Source of the DNA: Flavisolibacter ginsengisoli DSM 18119
GTDB lineage: Bacteria; Bacteroidota; Bacteroidia; Chitinophagales; Chitinophagaceae
Length of the DNA: 64,000 bases
Assembly: GCF_900129295.1 (NCBI RefSeq)
Contig: NZ_FQUU01000012.1
Span: forward strand, 1 to 64,000
Direction of reading: 5' to 3'
A model generated the notes under the pieces. That model searched no databases. It saw only the letters and a program-made list of their open reading frames with translations, and had not been told where the DNA came from. Numbering within the stretch: position 1 is the first letter of the stretch; every line of letters starts with the position of its first letter. Position numbers and translations under genes: made by a program. Shown one piece after another: positions 29,628 to 61,110 of this stretch.

Positions 29628-30292
29628 TAGCCTATATTAAAATTAACGGATAACTCTTTTAAGAGCAGGAAAAGGCATGTACAGACCATGGGTGCATCCT
29701 TATCCCTCAAACTTTGACCTTGCGTAGTAAAGTACCTAAAGTTTATTACTCCCTGCTCAATATTCCATACTACTGAAAGCTTCCTGATTCTAACGAAAGG
29801 ACATTCAAGATTATATTATTACAACTTCTTTCTATTTATTCTATAAAAAGTAAAAACTGCCTGTCTACAAACTTATTTCCATAAAAACGCCACCAGGGTC
29901 CTGCCAACTTCCAGGCTAAAGGGAGGATGTCCCATAGATGACCCATAGATGTCCCATAGATATCCCATAGATATCCCAACCATATAAGCATTGGGACATC
30001 TATGGGATATGTATGGCCGATGTATGAGATATTAGTTGGATGTACACCTAGTAGGCTGAATTTAGAATTGGATGGATCATAATGCGGTAGTTTCCAGGGT
30101 AGTATTACCGCTTTCCTGGGTAAGGTTGGTAAAAAAGGCCCGGAAGCCATGTTGCCGCTTTTGGATTTTTACCATTCTCCCCTTCTTTCCACCGCCTGTA
30201 ATTTTAAAGGGCATTACAGTAACCAGAAGGAGTTTACATTCGTTATACGAAAGATTTCGTTATTTATAGATAATAAACTTAAACCAATTAGT
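29628..30292. other. Intergenic region with an 11-nt repeat array
   Basis: About 665 bases between the divergent DUF4290 and DUF2807 genes. The main content is the 11-nt array at 29930-30025. Closer to the DUF2807 start, TTCGTTATACGAA is an imperfect palindrome. A leftward frame over the array (29836-30150) is judged a by-product of the repeats. I see no other gene. Confidence 0.6.
29930..30025. repeat. 11-nt tandem array with inverted 11-nt units
   Basis: Four and a half direct copies of an 11-nt unit (TCCCATAGATG, ACCCATAGATG, TCCCATAGATA, TCCCATAGATA, TCCCA; 29930-29978), an 11-nt spacer region, then three 11-nt units in the opposite sense (GGGACATCTAT 29993-30003, GGGATATGTAT 30004-30014, GGCCGATGTAT 30015-30025). 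The inner arms 29963-29979 and 29991-30007 match as an inverted repeat at 16 of 17 positions, so the transcript or single strand can fold into a long hairpin. The period is close to one helical turn. Confidence 0.85.
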
Positions 30293-56537: not shown

Positions 56538-56578
56538 TTTTGTGTAAACATTCAAATAAGTATATAGTATAAATTGGG

Positions 56579-56610
56579 GTTGAAAAGTTGACGGGTTGAC
56601 TAGTTGAAAA
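56579..56610 (+). repeat. 8-nt tandem array (GTTGANNN)
   Basis: Four consecutive 8-nt units GTTGAAAA, GTTGACGG, GTTGACTA, GTTGAAAA. It shares period and unit with the array at 31007-31038. Start of a 407-base gene-free stretch (56538-56944) that holds mainly such arrays. Confidence 0.65.
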
Positions 56611-56676
56611 GTAGGAAACCTCCCGGACATCCCCAATAATCCATTCTAATCTTATCAATCTTAGTTCTCCTCTTCC

Positions 56677-56711
56677 TTGAATATTGAACATTGAGCATTG
56701 TTTATTGAGCA
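56677..56711 (+). repeat. 7-nt tandem array (TTGANNA)
   Basis: Five 7-nt units: TTGAATA, TTGAACA, TTGAGCA, TTGTTTA, TTGAGCA. A leftward frame across it (56395-56712) is a translation of the repeat. Third base and fifth to sixth bases vary, the TTGA core is kept in four of five. Confidence 0.65.
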
Positions 56712-56770
56712 TTTCAAATGGTCTAAAATATGTTCAGTTAAAAAAGCCTCTCCAACCTAAACAACTTCGA

Positions 56771-56833
56771 TATTCGACATTCCTTGTTCTATTGTTCGAC
56801 ATTCAATAATCCTTGTTCTATTGTTCGACATTC
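56771..56833 (+). repeat. 29-nt direct repeat with TTCGACATTC core
   Basis: An exact 24-nt sequence occurs at 56781-56804 and 56810-56833 (29-nt period), and its last half (TATTCGACATTCC) also at 56771-56783. Internally the TTC triplet recurs at about 7-8-nt steps, so it may be a more evolved form of the 7-nt arrays. No gene is visible within. Confidence 0.7.
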
Positions 56834-57889: not shown

Positions 57890-58273
57890 TTAGCTGTTAT
57901 TCTTCCTGGTATTGTGTTCCAACCAATAAATGATGTCATTGAAGTTGTATTTGCCTGAGGCTATACGTATTATAAACTGATATTTCTCTTCTTGAGTAGC
58001 AGTAATATCAAGGCCAGATTCCATTAATAATATTCGCATGAGTACATATCCAGTTCTTTTGTTTCCATCAACGAAAGGATGATTTATAAGAATACTTTCA
58101 ATAAGTGCAGAGGCCTTTTGTATTGCAGTCGTATATAGCTCTTTGCCATCAAATGTTGAGTAAGGCCTTGAAAGAGCAGATGACAATGTGCCATTATCCC
58201 TAATTCCATAGCTACCTCCAAATTGATCTATTAGAATTTTATGAATTTGCTCTACCTGACTAAGACTTATCAT
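57890..58273 (-). CDS. doc: Doc-family (Fic fold) toxin
   Basis: A 127-residue protein of the Death-on-curing family. The active motif HPFVDGNKRTG is complete (His65, then the anion hole NKR), in ILINHPFVDGNKRTGYVLM; the N-terminal VEQIHKILIDQFGGSYGIRD and RPYSTFDGKELYTTAIQKAS match Doc. Doc phosphorylates EF-Tu and stops translation. The ATG overlaps the end of the upstream small gene by 4 bp (58270-58273), the usual translational coupling of an antitoxin-toxin pair. The active motif is intact, so the toxin is probably functional. Confidence 0.92.
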   Translation of the reverse strand: MISLSQVEQIHKILIDQFGGSYGIRDNGTLSSALSRPYSTFDGKELYTTAIQKASALIESILINHPFVDGNKRTGYVLMRILLMESGLDITATQEEKYQFIIRIASGKYNFNDIIYWLEHNTRKNNS

Positions 58274-58601: not shown

Positions 58602-59006
58602 TCAGCTTTGAATTATGCATAGCCTTTCCTTTATACGTTGGTTTAGTTTCTTACTTTCAAAGGCAAGCACGGTAAGAATTCCCAGTGTATAAGCCACAAA
58701 ATCCATCCATTCGAAACCAATTCCTATAACGGACCTGGCAACGACGTTGTTTTCGAGTCCGAGCCTGTTTACAATATGAAAATATTGAAGTGTTTCTATG
58801 AGGAAGGAGAACAACAGTACACCAACAGCAACTTTCCACACTGAAGCTTTTAAGACTGTTCTAACTGCGCAATAGATCAAAATAACCACAAGGTAATCGC
58901 CTACATAAGGCCTGACAAAAGCATCCCTTACAAAAACTGCAATCAAAACCTCAATTAAAAAAAGGATGATGGTGAGGATTAAATATTTCTTATTAAATGT
59001 GAACAT
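58602..59006 (-). CDS. DUF2809 family membrane protein
   Basis: A 134-residue protein with four membrane helices, starting at the ATG at 59004-59006 (MFTFNKKYLILTIILFLIEV). The layout VRDAFVRPYVGDYLVVILIY, LLFSFLIETLQYFHIVNRLG and a final GFEWMDFVAYTLGILTVLAF matches DUF2809 (VanZ-like topology). No function established. A longer version adds six residues of no conservation. Upstream lies the second 11-nt repeat array. Confidence 0.85.
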   Translation of the reverse strand: MFTFNKKYLILTIILFLIEVLIAVFVRDAFVRPYVGDYLVVILIYCAVRTVLKASVWKVAVGVLLFSFLIETLQYFHIVNRLGLENNVVARSVIGIGFEWMDFVAYTLGILTVLAFESKKLNQRIKERLCIIQS

Positions 59007-59511
59007 ATTGAGGTCGGATATCAATTCCCGTCAAGTAGCCATCTCCTACCATATTGCAATGATGTTGTAAAAGCGCACATCAATTGTTTTTATGCTATAC
59101 CAGACAGCTATTTGAACTGTGACAATAAGGGTTATCATTTGTAAATAAAAGAAATAAAAACATAAACAAAAGGACCCTGAAAACGCAAATTCAATTTATT
59201 TACCCTGCAGTCTCCTGGTGATTATAACATTAACTTTTTAACTACCAGCATAAGGCTTGCCCGGTAGCATGACAATTTTACTGGAATTTATTATTGCTGT
59301 CAACCTTTTTAAGTATTGTACAGCTTAATCTAAGCCATTTATGCAACGCCTATGTGCCGCCTATGTAACGCCTTTGTGCCGCCTATGTAACGGCTCTTTA
59401 AGAAGGCGGCACAAAGGTGTTGCATACCCTTTACATAGGGGCTATAAGGCCAGGACAAATGGCAATTTGTCAGAATTTTATACTGGCAATTACTCCTATC
59501 CCTGGTAACTC
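59007..59511. other. Intergenic region with the second 11-nt repeat array
   Basis: About 505 bases between DUF2809 and the amidohydrolase gene. The right part holds the array at 59348-59437; the left part (59007-59330) is AT-rich with no gene, hairpin or clear promoter seen. Confidence 0.6.
59348..59437. repeat. 11-nt tandem array with inverted 11-nt units (second locus)
   Basis: Four direct units GCCTATGTGCC, GCCTATGTAAC, GCCTTTGTGCC, GCCTATGTAAC (59348-59391), a short gap, then three 11-nt units in the opposite sense (59405-59415, 59416-59426, 59427-59437: GGCGGCACAAA, GGTGTTGCATA, CCCTTTACATA). The arms 59362-59383 and 59405-59426 match as an inverted repeat at 20 of 22 positions. Same architecture and period as at 29930-30025, different unit, with a shared CTATG core. 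Confidence 0.85.
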
Positions 59512-61110
59512 TCAAAAGCTTTTTACAGTTGCAGGCATAGTCATTTCATTCTTAAGGGTCATGCCGTTGCGGGTACCCAGGTGCTGCCCATTCTCCACCA
59601 CCAGTTGCCCGTTTACTATCACATATTGGAAGCCCACCGAGTAGGCATGTGGCTGATCGTACGTGGAAAGATCCCTGACCTGTTTTTCATCAAAAACAAG
59701 GATGTCGGCGGCCATACCTTCTTTAAGTATTCCCCTGTCCTTTAACCCAAATTTCTGTGCGGGTAGGGAGGTCATGCGGCGGACCGCTTCTTCAAGCGAG
59801 AGAACCTTTTCATCCCGAACATATTTGCTTAATACCCGGGCATTGGTGCCATAACCCCTAGGGTGTGGTGCTCCCTGGTTGAAGATGCGTATGGATGCAT
59901 CGCAGGCAAACATGTTGAAGGGATATTGCATGATCCTTTTCACGTCTTCATCAGACATGCCATGGAATACCATGCCGGCACCACCGGCCTCCATCATATC
60001 CATTACTGTTTCTGCTTCCTGTTTGATCTTGTGTTTCCTGCCCTTCAGCCGGTTGATCTCTTCGATGTTTTTGCCGTTGTAAGTAGTATCTGCTTTGAAG
60101 TAGGCTACATAGGCATAACTCAGGTGTTTGAGTTTGCGCTTTTTCAGCTTTCCTTTTATGTATTGATATACATATTCCCTCACTTCGGGTCGTTGAAGTC
60201 TGGCCTTTATAGAGTCAGCTCCATCAGCTAATATTTCATCAGGCAGCAGGGTGCTTAAAGAAGTACTGCTGGCCGTGTAGGGATACTGGTCAATGGTGAC
60301 ATCAATACCTTCTTCCCTTGCTTTAACGATCATGGCCACCGTTTCTTTACTCCTGCCCCAGTTTTGCTGGCCACTGAGTTTGAAATGAGAGATCTCTACC
60401 GGCAAGTGCGCTTCCCTTCCAATAAGCAATGCTTCGTCAATGGCCTGTGTTACACTGTCGCCCTCATCACGCATATGAGAAGCATAGACACCTTTGTAAC
60501 GGGCAGCTACTTTAGCCAGCCTTACTATTTCATCCGTTCCGGCATAAGTGCCCGGAATATAAATAAGACCTGTACTTAAACCAACAGCTCCATCCTTCAT
60601 GGCCTGGTCAACAATACCTTCCATGCGCTGCATTTCTTCTTCAGTGGGTTTCCGGTTGGCCGTTCCCATTACCGACTTCCGCACATCATTATGACCGATA
60701 AGTGTGGCTACATTGATGGAAAGCCTGGTTGAATCCAGTTGCTCAAAATATCTTTTAATATCCAGCCGGGAAGCGCCGCAATTGCCAGTAACTACGGTGG
60801 TGACACCGTCCATGATAAAATTGTTGGCTGTAGGGTTTTTCTGTTCATCACCTTCTATATGTGTATGCACATCTATGAAGCCGGGGCTAATGATCATATT
60901 GGCCGCATCAATGGTTTTTGAAGCAGTGATGCCTGCACAATTTCCAAGCTTTATGATCTTTCCATTTTTTATGGCAACATCACCATACCTCCACGAGTTA
61001 CCCGTACCGTCAAGTATCCGACCATTCTTTATTAGAATATCAGCCGTTTCCTGTGCCCTTGCACCTGCAGAAAAGAGGACCAGGAAAAGAAAGGAGCAAA
61101 AAGTTTTCAT
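59512..61110 (-). CDS. D-aminoacylase-like secreted amidohydrolase
   Basis: A 532-residue exported enzyme with signal peptide ending AGARAQ. It has the amidohydrolase fold of N-acyl-D-amino-acid deacylases: an N-terminal beta part (DILIKNGRILDGTGNSWRYG), metal ligands in GFIDVHTHIEGDE, the Cys ligand in VTGNCGASRLD, and His residues in YASHMRDEGDS and VEISHFKLSGQQNWG; the Asp ligand is in FACDASIRIF. It would hydrolyse N-acyl-D-amino acids or related dipeptides and lactams, perhaps wall-derived, in the periplasm. It is divergent from the beta-lactamase-like gene, 99 bp away, which also suits wall-peptide processing. Confidence 0.92.
   Translation of the reverse strand: MKTFCSFLFLVLFSAGARAQETADILIKNGRILDGTGNSWRYGDVAIKNGKIIKLGNCAGITASKTIDAANMIISPGFIDVHTHIEGDEQKNPTANNFIMDGVTTVVTGNCGASRLDIKRYFEQLDSTRLSINVATLIGHNDVRKSVMGTANRKPTEEEMQRMEGIVDQAMKDGAVGLSTGLIYIPGTYAGTDEIVRLAKVAARYKGVYASHMRDEGDSVTQAIDEALLIGREAHLPVEISHFKLSGQQNWGRSKETVAMIVKAREEGIDVTIDQYPYTASSTSLSTLLPDEILADGADSIKARLQRPEVREYVYQYIKGKLKKRKLKHLSYAYVAYFKADTTYNGKNIEEINRLKGRKHKIKQEAETVMDMMEAGGAGMVFHGMSDEDVKRIMQYPFNMFACDASIRIFNQGAPHPRGYGTNARVLSKYVRDEKVLSLEEAVRRMTSLPAQKFGLKDRGILKEGMAADILVFDEKQVRDLSTYDQPHAYSVGFQYVIVNGQLVVENGQHLGTRNGMTLKNEMTMPATVKSF

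Follow-up and report, generated by a model that had tools for sequence, protein, structure and literature searches.

The window (the whole 64,000-nucleotide stretch of Flavisolibacter ginsengisoli DSM 18119 analysed here) contains, in the spacer between a DUF2809 membrane protein gene and an amidohydrolase gene, an 88-nt array (59340–59427) in which five direct 11-mers are followed by a palindromic centre of 11 nt and two inverted 11-mers (Table 1). The first-pass annotation had described four direct and three inverted units here; the array is real, but the direct units number five (59340–59394), and only two of the inverted units are clear (59406–59427), the third being hardly conserved in other copies. 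TRF called the array at 59347–59388 with a period of 11 and at 59340–59392 with a period of 22. When a run was defined as at least 25 matches in a 33-nt window, two lag-11 runs were found in the window, at 29931 and 59340, and likewise two at lag 22; there were none at lags 7–10, 12–21, 23 and 24, and one mononucleotide shuffle per lag yielded no run. As had been claimed, the array at 29926–30035 has the build, the period and the letters CTATG in common with that at 59340, and the two differ in sequence, BLAST with each finding different places. The window also carries clustered short tandem repeats at 56577–56833, including a 29-nt unit in 2.3 copies (TRF), and a Fic/DOC family protein gene on the minus strand (57890–58273).

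Table 1. Arrays and flanking genes in the window
Feature	Position	Strand	Sequence, basis or remark
DUF2809 membrane protein gene	58602..59024	-	array lies ~300 nt upstream of its start
Short left flank, weakly conserved in class A	59328..59339	+	left element boundary here; information content
Five direct 11-nt units, class A	59340..59394	+	TATGCAACGCC TATGTGCCGCC TATGTAACGCC TTTGTGCCGCC TATGTAACGGC; sequence, TRF, copy alignment
11-nt centre, palindromic	59395..59405	.	tctttaagaag; consensus TCTTTAAAGAG; copy alignment
Two inverted 11-nt units	59406..59427	+	GCGGCACAAAG GTGTTGCATAC; copy alignment, fold
Weak third inverted unit	59428..59438	+	hardly conserved among other copies; covers 59437, the array end in the first-pass annotation
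Amidohydrolase gene (Amidohydro_3)	59512..61110	-	array lies after its 3' end
Class B array	29926..30035	+	direct part of five 11-mers, about 29926-29978; centre AT-rich; inverted part reaches about 30032

Based on BLAST searches of the organism's own assembly (4.68 Mb, 55 contigs), with matches merged into places, the window copy belongs to a class (A) with 32 places, and the 29926–30035 array to a class (B) with 25 places. A third class (C), first met upstream of genes of the MAK family described below, occupies at least 40 places, a lower bound because 40 of 49 candidates were scored, so that the three classes total 97 places. The suggestion that the two arrays are members of a repeat class, and not copies of one another, is thus borne out by three sequence classes at 97 places; a congener and a second genus have further classes of period 11. 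Lag-11 arrays occur in numbers far beyond the two in the window, a lack of such enrichment being what the annotation had named as speaking against a class. A gapless alignment was made of 31 of the 32 class A copies (C18:100703 was missed by the centre pattern), and 30 of these 31 consist, with no indels, of five units on the left, two on the right and, between them, the centre TCTTTAAAGAG or a close variant of it; the exception, C10:101532, has three left units. Conservation begins about 12–13 nt before the first unit (information content is below 0.3 bit beyond about −13) and fades past position 88, and since it is confined between these edges, each copy is a discrete element set in flanks unrelated to those of the others. 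Ordinary slippage, with inverted parts arising by chance, would account for units that are tandem and similar, but we regard it as extremely improbable: the unit number is fixed in the 30 copies, the same centre recurs in unrelated flanks, and inverted arms are present in every class seen. A slippage origin is refuted by this fixed build.

No BLAST match to class A was found in 37 relatives, 17 of them congeneric. However, arrays of the same build and other letters exist in some related lineages. Samples totalling 200 kb of the congener G015 contained seven lag-11 runs (four when fold-back was required) and zero runs at lags 10 and 12, while 200 kb of another congener, G003, had zero runs at lags 10, 11 and 12. 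By eye, the G015 runs fall into three sequence classes. One of these, class Y, gave 39 BLAST matches in G015, from which 36 places were retrieved; the 17 other congeneric genomes searched gave no match. When class X was searched in 146 genomes of the family, one genome alone among the matches listed, G104 of another genus, showed weak matches (G015 itself is absent from these listed matches). G104 has six lag-11 runs in 62 kb, a sample picked around the class X matches, and its unit letters resemble those of G015 class X, so the sequence is partly shared here. Fold-back lag-11 arrays were found neither in G003 (200 kb), G013 (40 kb), G014, G005, G006 and G009 (80 kb each) nor in 80 Chitinophagaceae loci (710 kb), where three lag-11 runs without fold-back consisted of one run of N and two AT-rich stretches. 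Dense arrays therefore are a trait of some lineages. The array build is common to these lineages, and the letters often are not. AT-rich direct 11-nt repeats (TAGTAATGATTT-like) at L141:9146 and L162:8925 are similar to each other in sequence and have no fold-back.

All-against-all comparison of the genes near arrays, in the own genome and in G015, disclosed one paralogous family, MAK, whose aligned N-termini share MAK..GP...TG.(D/G)GI..(Y/F)K..G. The members tested had no worthwhile family match in Pfam, NCBIfam or PHROGs, and no DNA-binding domain was recognisable. A PDB profile search with the MAK profile A3 gave three weak matches (E = 0.27–0.42), and structure prediction without an alignment for the homologue L298 was uninformative (pLDDT 30.5). 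MAK genes were detected in 9 of 18 genomes of the genus (profile A1) and in 41 of 296 genomes of a Bacteroidia sample (profile A3); there were zero matches in 50,697 phage records, one match among 72,556 plasmid records and one viral contig, and no further homologue was found in 80 named loci.

The own genome has nine MAK genes (profile A3), and eight of them have an array 69–332 nt upstream (two of class A, three of B and three of C), the gene on C53 being the exception. By a rough estimate, this link would arise by chance with a probability of 5e-16; with arrays confined to 12% of the genome, the value is 1e-8. In G015, a MAK gene lies within 1.5 kb of 14 of the 36 class Y arrays, and in all 14 cases the array is upstream, at 235–513 nt. 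The orientation of the array relative to the gene is the same in six and opposite in eight, and such mixed orientation is unlike that of a simple promoter site. Arrays are thus linked to MAK genes, and it is this gene family beside the arrays that is new here. The annotation had supposed a mechanism or protein that maintains phased, folded-back units; of this, the protein part gains ground, as one uncharacterised gene family adjoins arrays in several species, but the upkeep of a fold-back does not (see below). Because 89 of the 97 arrays in the own genome and 22 of the 36 class Y arrays have no MAK gene listed alongside, any function away from the gene stays putative.

The association extends beyond these two genomes. 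At congener MAK loci chosen regardless of repeats, lag-11 runs lie beside many genes, and lag-10 runs were found in L272, L275 and L277; L261, L263, L265 and L274, among others, have by eye only weak arrays of two or three units. Upstream of 28 class-wide MAK genes we counted eight runs at lag 11, five at lag 22 and 0–2 at other lags, and no lag-11 runs downstream. In 41 upstream regions outside the own genome, pairs of the motif YATRC (picked after inspecting these sequences) occur 38 times at a spacing of 11, 27 times at 22 and 20 times at 33, against shuffled means of 0.57–0.68, and the count is at most 5 at every other spacing from 6 to 40. A pair at spacing 11 exists in 18 of the 41 loci, and pairs at spacings 8–10 and 12–14 in 0–2 loci; the remaining 23 regions have no exact pair at 11. 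This set leaves out, besides the own-genome loci, the truncated locus L314, the two loci L259 and L272, for which the script found no gene, and the repeat loci L300 and L304. In 20 congener MAK loci, lag-7 runs (23) and lag-14 runs (14) are as common as lag-11 runs (15), indicating that other short repeats crowd round MAK genes, and heptamer repeats are found elsewhere in the family as well (20 lag-7 runs in 710 kb). Heptamer tandem repeats (e.g. GGAGTTT, GAGCTAT) are located just after the MAK stop codon in the congener loci L262, L277, L264, L275 and L261, and a further repeat, about 10 nt long (CGGCCA or CGGCA motif), is located between the array and the MAK start in L290, L333, L332 and L260.

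MAK genes also have recurrent neighbours. A small, divergent gene for an HTH-like protein (weak matches to HTH families and to a Cox-like excisionase) accompanies MAK in 7 of 17 class-wide loci, and in several loci the array begins, by eye, at or close to its start codon. In the same 17 loci, DUF6943 is found in 10, DUF5675 in three, clusters of holin-like genes (one weak holin PHROG match) in nine and four, and a tyrosine integrase near MAK in three. Sequence inspection by eye revealed tRNA 3' ends upstream in L321 and L326, and a MAK copy on a Marivirga plasmid adjoins an annotated integrase. The HTH-like gene is without a match in G015 and has a single one in the own genome, so the arrays there are independent of a neighbouring copy. 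The orphan HTH locus L392 has an array, with no MAK gene seen within 3.2 kb. In L298, L307, L327 and L328, the place of the HTH-like gene upstream of MAK is taken by a nuclease-like gene, by eye of the SNase type.

Single strands of the arrays fold far better than shuffled sequences. Both the window copy (RNA −46.5 kcal/mol, z = −7.00; DNA z = −6.45) and the 29926 array (RNA z = −6.06, DNA z = −4.59) form a long stem; RNA z values of four class A copies and one class B copy ranged from −4.23 to −7.00, and DNA z values from −4.44 to −6.51. Such values would fit arrays that act as RNA, that is, as a transcribed long hairpin serving as terminator, attenuator or stability element. However, in three registers the observed covariation score of the arms was reached by 494, 285 and 293 of 500 shuffles; the stem register and the preferred left pairing partner differ among copies; Rfam covariance models gave no match in the window at the gathering score; and convergent sites, the home of terminators, are rare. 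The 61 arrays with ORFs on both sides (at least 100 aa; 25 of the 97 arrays without flanks, nine at contig ends or neighbourless and two inside a mechanical ORF were left out) comprise 30 tandem, 24 divergent and 7 convergent sites, and the 25 of class A comprise 15, 10 and 0, respectively. Divergent spacers tend to be longer, and part of the divergent bias may reflect length. A role as RNA is therefore quite unlikely in our judgement. A selected hairpin or maintained fold-back is not supported, given that partners in the stem showed no covariation in any of the three registers and that the number of units is fixed; a Rho-independent terminator was rejected because convergent sites are so few. 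In contrast to the pairing, the positions of the units are invariant across the aligned class A copies. Unit positions that are conserved while the arms do not covary are accounted for if double-stranded DNA carries binding sites arranged as a dyad.

Direct units spaced by 11 nt upstream of MAK genes are what a multi-site operator of the PHO-box type would present, the binding itself being something that we infer. PHO boxes, as described in PMC4415409, likewise consist of direct 11-nt units one helical turn apart, which are bound head to tail, but they are direct repeats at host promoters with, in that account, no inverted half, whereas the present arrays are dispersed and their sequence turns over between species. 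The arrays could serve a host regulator unconnected with MAK as operators, the dispersed copies being its regulon; the known operator design and the dominance of divergent and tandem sites agree with this. The presence of several unrelated classes in one genome, the near-identical, sharp-ended copies in unrelated flanks and the total turnover between species are, however, better suited to spreading elements, and we consider a host regulon very unlikely.

Among known dispersed repeats, the arrays work partly like REPs and REPtrons (the REP/REPIN–RAYT systems), which, by the accounts in PMC3733652 and PMC8266576, are also short, dispersed, intergenic, species-specific and palindromic. In both, one gene family lies beside some copies, and copies serve as landing sites for insertion sequences, as reported for REPs in PMC8450116. 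However, the arrays fail the defining features tested. REPs as defined in PMC3733652 are palindromes of 20–40 nt with a GTAG or CGTC tag at one end, whereas the arrays are about 88–100 nt long, are made of phased 11-nt units (five, centre, two) and, in the class A consensus, have neither tag; the REPtron gene is a RAYT, whereas the gene linked here is MAK. Movement of the arrays on a folded single strand by a RAYT (Y1) transposase, with the MAK link secondary, would explain both their REP-like appearance and the good folding, and the own genome has five Y1_Tnp matches, four of them over the cut-off. In REPtrons the repeat flanks the Y1 gene, but the five Y1 loci, scanned for patterns and searched for repeats, showed other repeats and no 11-mer arrays; the sole match to the class A centre (four mismatches, L061) is inside coding-like sequence, and the arms pair without covariation. 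We thus hold this explanation to be unlikely. The RAYT-like Y1 genes of L058 (C10:46690-50031), L059, L061 and L062 have distinct palindromic repeats of their own; in L058, for example, several copies of a 264-nt unit surround the gene.

Two other kinds of repeat resemble the arrays in part. MITEs, which have terminal inverted repeats (TIRs), target duplications and a parent transposase, are small, non-autonomous and multi-copy, as these arrays are; the class A edges show no obvious pair of TIRs and none matching a known transposase, and no parent was found among the transposases searched. BOX elements of Streptococcus pneumoniae, too, are dispersed and modular, contain inner units that are repeated, and can fold as a whole; however, according to PMC3049150 the number of boxB units varies and convergent sites are over-represented, whereas the present arrays have a fixed number of units and seldom lie at convergent sites. 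A search of open-licence literature gave no description of these arrays, and the annotation's remark that no named element of this type was known to it agrees with that search and with the Rfam result for the window.

In short, these arrays are a real repeat class whose build is conserved while its sequence turns over, and an uncharacterised gene is linked to it. With modest confidence, we favour a single joint explanation: the window array is one copy of an intergenic element of about 100 bp from a species-specific family, which would descend from a phased 11-nt cis-element of MAK genes, a protein-binding array of a mobile cassette whose copies spread in the manner of REPs. Such an element would have originated upstream of MAK genes, and MAK in other Bacteroidia is part of a small mobile cassette made up of the HTH-like gene, the array, MAK, DUF5675 or holin-like genes and DUF6943. 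The array most likely acts as double-stranded DNA. With units one helical turn apart, several protein molecules could bind next to each other on the same face, and the bound complex would owe its dyad to the inverted half. We infer that the bound protein is most likely the cassette's own, either MAK or, where present, the small HTH-like protein, so that the array may serve the cassette as an operator or as a site of assembly. Copies of the array would then, in some lineages, have spread to intergenic sites as non-autonomous elements by means of a presumed enzyme; among the transposases searched as candidate partners, none was found to move them.

We also suggest, more tentatively, that arrays and MAK may constitute an undescribed two-part system of Bacteroidia, in which a cassette protein recognises the array and aids its spread through chromosomes, the recognised unit changing between species and the build (period 11, direct half, palindromic centre, inverted half) staying. 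The arrays and the MAK family point to a partnership of repeat and protein that seems to be undescribed. Dispersed bacterial repeats are well known, but few have a known partner that moves or binds them; MAK offers a testable partner for one repeat class, and the sets of arrays and MAK genes are natural pairs for studying the evolution of DNA recognition. They also give a handle on a mobile cassette that includes DUF5675, DUF6943 and holin-like genes.

Under the favoured explanation, descent from the cassette's cis-element, the spread copies would later have been used as landing sites by an insertion sequence. One insertion-sequence end, with multiple terminal repeats, has 11 BLAST matches in the own genome, each at one of nine class A places, and it sits 3–34 nt before the first unit in 10 of the 31 class A copies. 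We take this insertion sequence to be IS21-like; its 39-aa C-terminus had no match in Pfam. Insertion sequences that target REPs are known, such as ISPpu9 (described in PMC8450116). A Mutator/IS256-type transposase end was also observed near arrays at contig ends, namely at C11:1-230 (L057) and at the starts of C17 (L056) and C41 (L021), the assignment being based on a Pfam match for L057 and made by eye for L056 and L021.
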